Source: an uncultured Verrucomicrobiales bacterium
GTDB taxonomy: Bacteria; Verrucomicrobiota; Verrucomicrobiia; Verrucomicrobiales; Akkermansiaceae
DNA: 64,000 bases
NCBI GenBank assembly: GCA_947039485.1
Contig: CAMQZC010000013.1
Coordinates: 1-64,000 of the forward strand
Reading direction: 5' to 3'
This document shows positions 2,655-9,700 of the stretch, piece by piece. The translations under genes and the position numbers were made by a program. Each line of letters begins with the position of its first letter. The stretch's first letter is position 1. Below the pieces are notes generated by a model that was given only the letters and a program-made list of their open reading frames with translations, was not told where the DNA came from and did not search any database.

Positions 2655-3290
2655 TTAAAGTCTCTCTAAGATACGGCTATCCAGATCATCTTGGCCGCAG
2701 ATGAGCTCAGCAAGGACGGGTACATCTGTATAGCGCTCTATGAGCTGTCTGTTGGTGAGGCTAGCAGTATCCCACTCCTCGGACATGTGATTGAGGATGA
2801 TTCCTTTGCACTCTAGTCCTCGAGCAGCGATGGCTTGGAGGGTGAGTAGTGTGTGATTGACGGCTCCGAGGCGGTTGCCCACGACGAGGATAATGGGTAG
2901 ATTGAGCGCGACTGCCAGGTCTGAGATGCTCAGACCTGGGGCAAGTGGTACTTCCCAGCCGCCTGCACCCTCAACAATGATAGGGGCGTTGCTTTTGCAC
3001 AGCTCATGGTAGCATGCCATGAGATGCTCAATTTTAATCTCGACCTGCTCAAGCTCAGCTGCAATGTAGGGAGCTGTGGCAGTACGCAGGTAAATGGGGT
3101 TAATGGTATCAAGACTCAGGCTACTCTCTGTGGCATCACGCATGGCGCGTGCATCTGCACGGTCACCACAGGCGAGTGGCTTGTAACCGAGGGCTGGGAT
3201 GCCTCTCTGACGTAGATCGCGCAGCAAGGCGCAGCTGATATGGGTTTTACCAACATTAGTGTCGGTACCAGTGATAAAGAAGTTCTGCAT
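2655..3290 (-). CDS. bioD: Dethiobiotin synthase
   Basis: MQNFFITGTDTNVGKTHISCALL P-loop; VEGAGGWEVPL. Confidence 0.93.
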   Translation of the reverse strand: MQNFFITGTDTNVGKTHISCALLRDLRQRGIPALGYKPLACGDRADARAMRDATESSLSLDTINPIYLRTATAPYIAAELEQVEIKIEHLMACYHELCKSNAPIIVEGAGGWEVPLAPGLSISDLAVALNLPIILVVGNRLGAVNHTLLTLQAIAARGLECKGIILNHMSEEWDTASLTNRQLIERYTDVPVLAELICGQDDLDSRILERL

Positions 3291-3304: not shown

Positions 3305-3469
3305 TTAGGGTGCTGAGAGGATAATTTCACCATCGAGCACGCGACCGTACTCCTGCTCTTCGGTGACACGACCGTTGCGCACGACGAGCCAAATAACAAT
3401 GGCGAGCACGAGGCATATTAATTTTGCCTGCCAATTAACGGACAGGAATCTCTTGATTTTTTTCAGCAT
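3305..3469 (-). CDS. 54-aa membrane-anchored micro-protein resembling the N-terminal anchor of YbbR/CdaR proteins
   Basis: Not in ORF track (<60 aa). Translates MLKKIKRFLSVNWQAKLICLVLAIVIWLVVRNGRVTEEQEYGRVLDGEIILSAP*; overlaps the cdaA 3' end by 35 nt in another frame. Confidence 0.7.
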   Translation of the reverse strand: MLKKIKRFLSVNWQAKLICLVLAIVIWLVVRNGRVTEEQEYGRVLDGEIILSAP

Positions 3470-4220
3470 GATTCGCGGTGTAAAGGAGCTCGGTGAGTCG
3501 GATGGAAAGGTAGTTCATATCAACATTGCGCTCAACCATGTTACCAACAGCAAGTGAGACAGCACCTGTCTCTTCGGAGACGATGATGATGACAGCATCT
3601 GATTCCTCTGCCAGACCGATGCCTGCGCGGTGGCGCAGGCCCATGGATCTATCCTTGAGCTCACGGTTGGAGACAGGTAGAATCGAGCCTGCGGAGATGA
3701 TGCGCTCATTCTCAATGATGACAGCACCATCATGCAAAAGTGTTTTGGGCATGAAGATGGTGCCTAGCAGCTCACGGGAAAAAAGGGCATCCATCTTGAC
3801 ACCGCTAGCAACGTAGCTCTCAAGCTTGTTGCTGCGGCAGATGGCGATGAGGGCACCGTAGCGCTTGCTGACAAGATAGGGGATGGTGTCAATGATTTGG
3901 CTGACAAAGTCAGATTTGTCTTCTTGGTTCCAGAATCGGCGGATGACGTGATGATTACCAATACGGGCTAGTGCGCTGCGCATCTCGGGCTGAAAGACGA
4001 CCGCCAGCAGCGTGCCAATCCCGATAAATGAGGTCACAATGTACTTGAGAACTGTAGCTTGTACGAGCTCTAGCATAATACTTCCTACGAGGATAATACC
4101 AACGAGACCGACCAAAATAGCGGCACCTCGCGAGTTGCGAAAGCTGCGGTAGAGCTGGTAAAAGACGAACCAGAGGATAAGTATCTCAATTACTGGGGTG
4201 ATTTGAGTCAGTTCTGGCAT
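3435..4220 (-). CDS. cdaA: CdaA/DacA-type diadenylate cyclase (c-di-AMP synthase)
   Basis: N-terminal TM helices; DisA_N motifs DGAVII and LGLRHRAGIGLAEESDA-like. Track start 4226 is TTG; ATG at 4220 fits the promoter. Confidence 0.92.
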   Translation of the reverse strand: MPELTQITPVIEILILWFVFYQLYRSFRNSRGAAILVGLVGIILVGSIMLELVQATVLKYIVTSFIGIGTLLAVVFQPEMRSALARIGNHHVIRRFWNQEDKSDFVSQIIDTIPYLVSKRYGALIAICRSNKLESYVASGVKMDALFSRELLGTIFMPKTLLHDGAVIIENERIISAGSILPVSNRELKDRSMGLRHRAGIGLAEESDAVIIIVSEETGAVSLAVGNMVERNVDMNYLSIRLTELLYTANHAEKNQEIPVR

Positions 4221-4316
4221 GGGCAAATACTAGCTTATTGTACATCACTTGGCAAGCTGGAAATGCACAATCTGTAAGTTATTGAACTATGCGCCTCAAT
4301 AAGCTGTCTCCACCTC

Positions 4317-6360: not shown

Positions 6361-7878
6361 TCACTTGAGACACTTGGTGATGGCCTTGATGAGGCTTGCA
6401 ATGTTGTGCTTACTTGCCTCAATATCCGGCTTCATACCATACTCTGCAAGAGTTGCTGTGGTGATGGGGCCGATGCTAGCGACGCGGCAGTTCTCAGGTA
6501 ACTTGATGCCCATAGCCACGAAGTGCTTGACTGTGCTTGAGCTGGTAAAGGTGATGAGATCAGCTCCCTCTCTCTTGAGTCGGTCGCAGGCTCCTGTAGG
6601 ATCCTCTGTCTCGGGGACAGTGTTGTAGGCGCAGCATTCATCAATGATGGCCTTGCGCTCCATGAGTTGCTTGTAGAGGATGTCTCTCCCCTGCTCGCTG
6701 TGCACCCAGAGCATGCTGGTATGCGCGACACCGCCAAACTCATCAGCTCGGCGATCAAACTCAGCGACAAGTTCCTCTGCGACAGCTTTTTTGGGCATAA
6801 CATCTACCATGAGACCCTGCTTCTTAAGCTCTGCTGCGGTACCTGGACCTACGGCGGCGATACGTGCTCCACCCAATTCTCGGATGTCTTGGTAGACGGC
6901 AAAGAAGGCTTGGAAGAAGCGCTTGACGGCATTGGGGCTTGAGAAAATGAGCCAATCGTAGCGTGGGCAGTCAACTACAGACTCAGCAAAGCCGAGGCGA
7001 TCACTTGGATGGGTGATGCGGATTGTAGGCAGCTCAAGTACGTCTGCGCCTAGATCAGTGAGCTCACGGCTCAGTGCACTGGCTTGATCACGGCTGCGTG
7101 TGACAACGACGCGCTTGCCGCTCAGCGGTAAGCGGCTAAAGAAATCGAGCTTGTCAGAGAGCTTGACAACATCACCGATGATGACAACGGCAGGTGCCTC
7201 AAGTCCGGCAGCATCGACAGCATCAGCCAGCGTGCTCACCTTGGCGATGACCTTGCGCTGACGGTTGGTTGCAGCCCATTGAATGGCTGCTGCTGGGGTT
7301 TTTGCATCCTGACCGGCTGCAATGAGGGCGCTGAGTGTCTCATGGAGATTGCTCATACCCATGAGCATAATCTTGCTACCCTGAGCCGCTGCAATACCCT
7401 TAATGTCAAGAGAAGAACGATCTTTTCCGGGCATCTCATGCCCAGTGAATACGGTAAATTGAGAGCACACTCCACGCTGAGTCACGGGGATGCCGGCATA
7501 GGCTGGGCCTGCGATAGCGGAGCTGATGCCAGGTACAACCTCAAAGGGGATTTTAGCAGCGCGCAGCGCAAGAGCTTCTTCTCCACCACGTCCAAAGATA
7601 TAGGGATCACCGCCCTTAAGGCGTACTGTGTGGGCGTATTTAGCTGCACATTGGATGAGCAAACCATTGATATCCTCCTGTGCGAGGGCGTGATTTCCTG
7701 CGCGCTTGCCTACAAAGATTGCTTTACAGTCAGGCTTTGACCATGAGAGTATGGCTGGAGATGCGAGTGCATCATAGAGAATGCAGTCAGCTGATTGAAT
7801 AAGTTCACGACCTTTGATGGTCATTAATCGGGGGTCTCCTGGACCAGCTCCAATGAGATGAATGGTTCCTTGCGGCAT
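6361..7878 (-). CDS. Uroporphyrinogen-III C-methyltransferase / uroporphyrinogen-III synthase fusion
   Basis: VTIHLIGAGPGDPRL-like CobA motifs followed by HemD domain; start corrected from TTG 7884 to ATG 7878. Confidence 0.92.
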   Translation of the reverse strand: MPQGTIHLIGAGPGDPRLMTIKGRELIQSADCILYDALASPAILSWSKPDCKAIFVGKRAGNHALAQEDINGLLIQCAAKYAHTVRLKGGDPYIFGRGGEEALALRAAKIPFEVVPGISSAIAGPAYAGIPVTQRGVCSQFTVFTGHEMPGKDRSSLDIKGIAAAQGSKIMLMGMSNLHETLSALIAAGQDAKTPAAAIQWAATNRQRKVIAKVSTLADAVDAAGLEAPAVVIIGDVVKLSDKLDFFSRLPLSGKRVVVTRSRDQASALSRELTDLGADVLELPTIRITHPSDRLGFAESVVDCPRYDWLIFSSPNAVKRFFQAFFAVYQDIRELGGARIAAVGPGTAAELKKQGLMVDVMPKKAVAEELVAEFDRRADEFGGVAHTSMLWVHSEQGRDILYKQLMERKAIIDECCAYNTVPETEDPTGACDRLKREGADLITFTSSSTVKHFVAMGIKLPENCRVASIGPITTATLAEYGMKPDIEASKHNIASLIKAITKCLK

Positions 7879-7922
7879 GCGCAAATCATAGCAGAAAGTA
7901 GCAGCATTTGCAACAAGAGACT

Positions 7923-8918
7923 TTAGTATGTCAGCTCTTGAGTGCTTGCTTCTGGGCTTTCTTTCTGCAGGATTGGCTCCACAGGGATGGCAGCGCCTTG
8001 GATGATGAATGGCTGCATGGTAGGAAGTTGTCGCAGCTCTGGTGGGAGGCTTGCTTCGTCAATTTCCTCTGCAAGCACATCATCAGCGGCGTGCGTGGGC
8101 GCGAGATAACCAGCATGGAGGTTACGGATGCCCGTTTTACCCTCATCAATGAGAGCAGAGACTGTTAACACACGTATGCCGCGAGCTTGTAGATTGCTCA
8201 GAATATACTCACTGGCAAGGGTGCTAGGTGCGTGGATGTCGTGTAGCAGGATGATCGAGCCATCGCGTGCGCTGCGCAAAACTCGCTGGGCGACTATTGT
8301 GGAGCCCGGGCGCCTCCAATCCTGAGGATCGACATCCCAGAGAATAGCTGGGGTGCCATACTTCTCAAAAATCTTTTTGAAAGTCTTGTTGTTACCAGCA
8401 CCGTAGGGTGGGCGCATGGCTCGGGGTTTGATACCTGTGTACTTCTCGATGATCTCAGAGCTACGTGTGAACTCTCTTTGAGCGCGAGCCCAGCTGACCC
8501 TTGCGAGATTGCAGTGCGTCCACGTGTGAATTGCTACCTCATGTCCCTCTGCGACCATGCGGCTCAGCAGATGAGGGTTGCGAGCTACGCAGCTGCCTAA
8601 GACAAAGAAGGTAGCCTTGGCATTGTACTTCTTGAGCAAGTCAAGAATGCGAGGGGTGTGGATGGGGTGTGGACCATCGTCATAGCTCAGGGCAACGGCT
8701 CCTTTGATACCATTGACACGGCTGATGCGATAATCTGATACTTGGATGGGTTGATTAGCCTTTGCGGTCACCCCCACCCAAGTGGCAATATCCTCTTGGG
8801 AGTGGCTGGGGTAGGCACTCGCTCCGCTAGCATTACTAGCGTCACCTTGGATAATGGCTGCTGGCGCGCTCGGTATTAAGCAGAGGCTGAGCAACAATGT
8901 GAAGAGAGGTCGAATCAC
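7923..8918 (-). CDS. Polysaccharide deacetylase (NodB homology)
   Basis: ALSYDDGPHPIHTPRILDLLKKYNAKATFFVLG; HTWTH; RPPYG. Confidence 0.9.
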   Translation of the reverse strand: MIRPLFTLLLSLCLIPSAPAAIIQGDASNASGASAYPSHSQEDIATWVGVTAKANQPIQVSDYRISRVNGIKGAVALSYDDGPHPIHTPRILDLLKKYNAKATFFVLGSCVARNPHLLSRMVAEGHEVAIHTWTHCNLARVSWARAQREFTRSSEIIEKYTGIKPRAMRPPYGAGNNKTFKKIFEKYGTPAILWDVDPQDWRRPGSTIVAQRVLRSARDGSIILLHDIHAPSTLASEYILSNLQARGIRVLTVSALIDEGKTGIRNLHAGYLAPTHAADDVLAEEIDEASLPPELRQLPTMQPFIIQGAAIPVEPILQKESPEASTQELTY

Positions 8919-9700
8919 TCCGGTGCTACTTCTGCGTTAGCTGAGTTTGCAATCGCTGCCTCGGCAGCCTCACGGGCTTCCTTTTGTGATTGCGCGAGGA
9001 GTTCTGAGACTGTCACAAGCTTGTAACCCTTGGCCTGCAGCCCAATGATAACGCTCTCAACAGCGTCAATGGAACTCTTGTGGATATCATGCATGAGGAT
9101 GATGGAGCCCGGGCGTGCTGGATTGACGGCTCGTTGGATGACGGTATTGATACCAGGCTTGCGCCAGTCGTTGGTATCAATGCTCCACAGGACTGTGCTG
9201 AGTCCGTAATTGTTAGCAAAATTACTGATGAGACTCTGATTAATCGCGCCGTATGGAGGACGTATGGTACGTGGTGTCGTCCCTGTCGTACTCTTAATGA
9301 TGCCTACGCTACGGCTGAGCTCATCATTGAGCTTGGCCGAGCTGAGACGTGGGAGAAAGGGGTGTGACCATGTATGAACTGCTACTTCATGACCCTCTGC
9401 AGCTGTGCGAGCAGCAATGGATGGATAGCGACGCACATTGGATCCAAGCACGTAAAATGTAGCCTTCGCGTTATGCTTCTTAAGGATGTTGAGCAGGCGA
9501 GGTGTGTTGCTCGCGTGAGGTCCATCATCAAAGGTGAGGGCAACGTATGGAACCTTGACCTTGACCTGACCGATGCGCGCATGCGTGGTGGTGAAGTGGT
9601 TGCTCATCTCCGCCACTGGCGGGGCGATTTTGCTCTCTTGGCTGCAAGAGGCAATGAGGAGGGTAAGGATGAGTGATAAACTACGCTTGTTCATATGCAA
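8915..9700 (-). CDS. Polysaccharide deacetylase (NodB homology), paralogue of the adjacent gene
   Basis: ALTFDDGPHASNTPRLLNILKKHNAKATFYVLG; lipobox-like N-terminus. Confidence 0.9.
   Translation of the reverse strand: MHMNKRSLSLILTLLIASCSQESKIAPPVAEMSNHFTTTHARIGQVKVKVPYVALTFDDGPHASNTPRLLNILKKHNAKATFYVLGSNVRRYPSIAARTAAEGHEVAVHTWSHPFLPRLSSAKLNDELSRSVGIIKSTTGTTPRTIRPPYGAINQSLISNFANNYGLSTVLWSIDTNDWRKPGINTVIQRAVNPARPGSIILMHDIHKSSIDAVESVIIGLQAKGYKLVTVSELLAQSQKEAREAAEAAIANSANAEVAPE

Follow-up and report, generated by a model that had tools for sequence, protein, structure and literature searches.

A single-helix, anchor-only form of CdaR encoded in overlap with cdaA in Verrucomicrobiales is a probable subunit of the diadenylate cyclase CdaA

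The gene directly downstream of cdaA in an uncultured Verrucomicrobiales bacterium encodes a 54-residue protein that very probably serves as an anchor-only CdaR, binding CdaA in the membrane and tuning it. The relationship to CdaR is drawn from anchor homology, gene order and the stepwise loss of YbbR domains, and we infer the binding and tuning from natural CdaA::anchor fusions and published contacts between membrane helices. The features of the locus within the window, the whole 64,000-nt stretch analysed, are as follows.

3305..3469, minus strand: gene predicted to encode the anchor-only CdaR (54 aa), running from an ATG at 3469 to a stop that ends at 3305
3435..3469, minus strand: 35 nt shared with the 3' end of cdaA, read in a different frame
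3389..3436, minus strand: conserved core N12-W13-x-x-K16-L-...-A23-...-W27, from homologue alignments
3371..3433, minus strand: predicted membrane helix (approximately residues 13-33), preceded by a short helix at the N-terminus (residues 3-11)
3308..3370, minus strand: C-terminal tail, predicted periplasmic, ending GEIILSAP here
3435..4226, minus strand: cdaA, membrane-bound diadenylate cyclase with CdaA_N and DAC domains
2655..3290, minus strand: bioD (dethiobiotin synthetase), the next gene, 14 nt after the stop of the short gene

The preliminary description, in which the strand was unstated, had placed a 54-aa ORF at 3305-3469, beginning 35 nt inside cdaA in another frame and followed by bioD; this arrangement is confirmed, on the minus strand. 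The encoded protein (MLKKIKRFLSVNWQAKLICLVLAIVIWLVVRNGRVTEEQEYGRVLDGEIILSAP) is predicted to form two helices, spanning residues 3-11 and 13-41, and a disordered tail, with a pLDDT of about 93 for residues 21-30 and lower values elsewhere. The cdaA frame opens with a TTG at 4226, an ATG at 4220 being the more likely start; its product retains intact LHDGA and GLRHR motifs, and the catalytic region is among the conserved columns of a class-wide alignment. On the downstream side, bioD occupies, in the genus, the position held by glmM in several sister families. Elsewhere in the window, the contig start (1-119) is a perfect tandem array of a 16-bp unit (TGCGCATCTCAATATT, 7.4 copies), probably an assembly break point. 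Two consecutive polysaccharide-deacetylase-like genes (7923-8918 and 8915-9700, minus strand) overlap by 4 nt and, by reading, are alike over much of their length, and a long ORF beside hemA (6361-7884, minus strand), again by reading, resembles a uroporphyrinogen-III methyltransferase fused to a uroporphyrinogen-III synthase.

A profile built from the short proteins only and run on 241 genomes of the phylum reveals the link to CdaR. Outside the class, its best matches immediately precede YbbR matches within ORFs of about 320-400 aa, as in genome G085, where the anchor match (77721-77816, E 3.9e-10) lies ahead of YbbR matches at 77841-78638; the profile also matches in genome G061 (E 3e-9). 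Alignment of the short family by hhalign to the N-termini of YbbR-bearing CdaR proteins from other phyla (Clostridia, Nitrospirota, Acidobacteriota, Planctomycetota, Omnitrophota and others) gives a probability of 97.2% (E 3.7e-11) over 35 columns, with K, A and W included. By both the profile matches and hhalign, the 54-aa protein carries the N-terminal membrane anchor of CdaR. Its genomic place, directly downstream of cdaA in the window and its relatives, is also that of CdaR: the cdaA-cdaR-glmM order has been described for Firmicutes (PMC10243994), and the order cdaA-short gene-glmM is found in many sister families (loci L064, L069, L070, L073, L077-L079, L166, L168-L171, L174 and others), with bioD following in the window. 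Pfam yields no model above cut-off for the 54-aa ORF or for five further anchor-only proteins, and NCBIfam no convincing match among 29 homologues. Among solved structures, none matches the anchor profile, and with full-length CdaR as query the matches were confined to fragments of its YbbR region; PDB 9g69, considered as a possible CdaA-CdaR complex, was rejected as CdaA-GlmM.

The absence of YbbR repeats from the ORF, as first described, holds: no YbbR domain (PF07949) is matched in it or anywhere in its genome. None is found above cut-off in the searched genomes of the genus or order, where the sole borderline match (G449) contains three stops; transfer of the YbbR domains to another gene is thereby ruled out. 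The short protein lacks the defining feature of YbbR-domain proteins and is therefore not to be filed as one. Of the 241 phylum genomes, 134 contain YbbR, as do 31 of the 286 class genomes. CdaR proteins with one domain (about 130-150 aa; two of them give Pfam E-values of 3e-8 and 5e-5) and with two domains (229 aa) occur in sister lineages; these domain numbers rest on PF07949 and length, a self-made YbbR profile undercounting the repeats. Since the number of YbbR domains in related lineages ranges from one or two to several, the YbbR ectodomain was lost, independently in several lineages.

A maximum-likelihood tree built from 152 CdaA proteins by a short search, with SH-aLRT support values, places the window within a 92-row branch (support 89) in which every member has either an anchor-only CdaR or none, surrounded by CdaA proteins with YbbR-bearing CdaR, outgroup phyla included. 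The YbbR/anchor label changes 7 times on this tree, against 36 or more in shuffles, and one of the 7 is spurious, as L195, labelled anchor, has a YbbR match. Anchor-only CdaR is also present at L208-L210 (family f35, another class), L168 with L177, L257 (a Methylacidiphilaceae MAG), L267 and L269 (Omnitrophota) and L294 (one Acidobacteria MAG contig). Separate losses of the YbbR domains thus number at least three and probably five or six, a count in which single MAG contigs may mislead. The CdaR origin proposed in the preliminary description is borne out by the anchor homology, the cdaA-short gene-glmM order and this graded loss, and by these sequence relationships the short protein is a CdaR reduced to a single membrane helix, one that probably works as the anchor of CdaR does.

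There are also three unrelated cases in which CdaA itself ends, at its C-terminus, in the anchor. The first fusion, found in two records that are 98% identical, belongs to the isolate Verrucomicrobium sp. BvORR106 (NZ_BATR01000164.1, L237) and its near relative G053 (L071). The second lies within the genus of the window (G150, L178) and retains the genus ending EIRRSHP on its fused tail; it is seen in one of 76 genus genomes and could be a local or assembly event. The third is encoded by an Omnitrophota MAG (L269). Topology is preserved in these fusions, the cytoplasmic cyclase domain being followed by a helix going out, and the fusion model (pLDDT 82, pTM 0.57) matches the known cyclase domain in the PDB. 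When aligned jointly with CdaA and the fusions, the short proteins fell on the CdaA N-terminus, and this alignment was left out of the modelling.

The proposed mechanism starts from an ancestral full-length CdaR, with one membrane helix and extracytoplasmic YbbR domains, encoded in a cdaA-cdaR-glmM operon. Comparative sequence indicates that the YbbR domains were lost in this part of the Verrucomicrobiota and that the helix and a short tail were kept. The short protein would be made together with CdaA from the overlapping frame, probably through translational coupling, and would lie N-in/C-out, packed against the N-terminal membrane helices of CdaA. This placement is suggested by the natural fusions and by the contacts that full-length CdaR makes with CdaA via membrane domains (PMC10243994; two-hybrid, PMC6368335). 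From there it may set how stable or how active the cyclase is, or its oligomeric state, and hence the c-di-AMP level, and sensing, if any, would be performed by the helix and the ~20-residue tail, not by YbbR domains. The direction of control is not predictable, since in S. aureus c-di-AMP goes up when ybbR carries an insertion (PMC11520302), whereas in Chlamydia YbbR is needed for full DacA output (PMC12422730) and seems to be an activator. Reports conflict on whether CdaR is an activator or an inhibitor of CdaA (PMC5207132), and its function is described as unknown in a review (PMC10243994). The minimal CdaA-binding regulatory subunit initially put forward is thus supported, its binding to CdaA indirectly, by the fusions and the published contacts.

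The same evidence accommodates a narrower role, which we consider possible although clearly less probable: a membrane chaperone-like micropeptide that supports the stability or assembly of CdaA, holding the cyclase in place or in the right oligomer with no signal-dependent regulation, the lost YbbR domains having done the sensing. The fusions to CdaA, the predicted architecture of a single helix and short tail, and the published contacts in the membrane (PMC10243994) are all compatible with such a factor. The tail, however, is conserved and selected, and its genus-level ending, D-D-I-R-x-S-x-P-(E) in the short proteins, suggests more than a passive helix. Selection and this genus-wide ending suggest that the tail adds something beyond the helix; one genus member, G028, has the helix with the tail almost absent.

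Conservation and selection support the anchor-only CdaR as a functional gene. A homologue of the 54-aa query is present in 52 of 59 related genomes at E<=1, with the best match adjoining cdaA in nearly all. Genus neighbourhoods, when read, show short ORFs mostly of 50-65 aa that start mostly 11 to 50 nt inside cdaA, and overlapping or near-abutting starts recur among relatives. The homologues follow the pattern N-W-x-x-K-L-x-x-L-x-x-A-x-x-x-W, in which K16, A23 and W27 are invariant in alignments of both 29 and 41 sequences. The type MKKLLLLNWPAKLFCLVLAVIIWSFINHW...EIRRSHP, carried by G004 and its relatives, appears to be that of Akkermansia muciniphila. The assignment of the genus to Akkermansia rests on L218 (JAFYWX010000006.1, a named Akkermansia record), which encodes a short protein identical to that of the same-genus genome G036. 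Among regions picked by the anchor profile and not by cdaA, about 37 of 40 in the class and 19 of 20 in the phylum contain both genes. Neither a CdaA end nor an anchor has a candidate in the genus genomes G031 and G425, and G031 also lacks a cdaA match, so that the absences of CdaA and anchor go together.

Substitution patterns were compared between closely related genus members in 46 pairs, restricted to the codons beyond the stop of cdaA. In the ORF frame outside the overlap, pS is 0.54 and pN 0.07, a ratio of 0.13, versus 1.18 and 3.27 when the same strand is read in its two other frames; the pairs share sequences, so this contrast is a description rather than a test on independent samples, and it is nonetheless large. 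The tail alone (0.135) and the helix (0.127) give similar ratios. A lack of conservation beside cdaA in relatives and a lack of coding signature outside the overlap had been named in advance as refuting results, and neither appeared: homologues follow cdaA in nearly every genus genome, and the coding signature is strong. A chance ORF is ruled out by conservation together with frame-specific selection, and on the sequence evidence the 54-aa ORF is a real, conserved gene.

These data also bear on the suggestion that the ORF is a decaying, functionless remnant of CdaR persisting through its overlap with cdaA. The loss of all YbbR domains is in keeping with decay, as is the complete loss of the gene in some lineages: cdaA without an anchor gene found beside it occurs at L081, L083-L086, L246 and L247, with glmM following directly in L081 and L247, and G038, G046, G052, G055, G057 and their relatives keep cdaA with no adjoining anchor, which is accordingly dispensable there. 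Against decay stand the pN/pS of 0.13 outside the overlap, tail included, the invariance of K, A and W across families, the retention of the gene through a deep Verrucomicrobiia clade and the lack of frameshift decay in the genus. A remnant in the sense of decay is unsupported, as selection is strong and acts equally on tail and helix, and we regard this reading as very improbable. Less credible still, and refuted on the evidence, is an unrelated one-helix protein merely adjoining cdaA, or else an overlap that codes for nothing: proteins with one helix are common, and only about 35 residues resemble CdaR, but profile matches on full-length CdaR N-termini, the 97% hhalign probability, the operon place of CdaR before glmM, the one- and two-YbbR intermediates and the coding signature all oppose it.

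The anchor-only CdaR can be set beside three known arrangements. The CdaR (YbbR) of Firmicutes, Chlamydia and others is a CdaA regulator composed of one membrane helix and YbbR domains, three or four of them in Firmicutes (PMC10243994). The short protein shares its homologous N-terminal anchor, its place after cdaA (before glmM in sister families) and its predicted N-in single helix, and differs in having no YbbR domain, in its size of about 50-60 aa in the genus versus over 300, and in overlapping cdaA. CdaA-CdaR fusions exist in some streptococci (PMC10243994); those at L071/L237, L178 and L269 similarly join cyclase and CdaR anchor in one chain, but fuse the anchor only, without YbbR domains. 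A literature search, with most subscription papers outside its scope, retrieved no description of CdaR in Verrucomicrobiota or of an anchor-only CdaR.

Small single-helix subunits of membrane complexes include CydX, KdpF and AcrZ. With them the short protein shares a size of about 30-55 aa, one helix and a gene encoded with, or a product serving, a larger membrane complex, no sequence relation being claimed; unlike them, it is a shortened multidomain regulator.

The part of CdaR that is conserved and repeatedly retained or fused is the helix, and the anchor-only form in most of the class suggests that the helix is its essential part. We see evenly balanced prospects for a wider proposal: that a separate subunit made of one helix controls CdaA in most Verrucomicrobiia and, independently, in a few further lineages, the core of CdaR being a membrane anchor that acts within the membrane with a short tail, and its YbbR domains being optional. 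If this is true, no known regulator of a c-di-AMP cyclase would be smaller, and the role of CdaR would have to be redefined. The lineages described here constitute a natural truncation experiment, in which YbbR domains were lost several times and the helix either persisted under strong selection or became joined to CdaA, making the idea of the anchor as the core of the regulator directly testable. A 54-residue protein is, moreover, small enough for synthesis, NMR or cryo-EM with CdaA. Akkermansia is among the gut bacteria whose c-di-AMP is linked to STING signalling in tumour immunity (PMC8670957), and the short protein would be the partner of the cyclase there, outside current family models.
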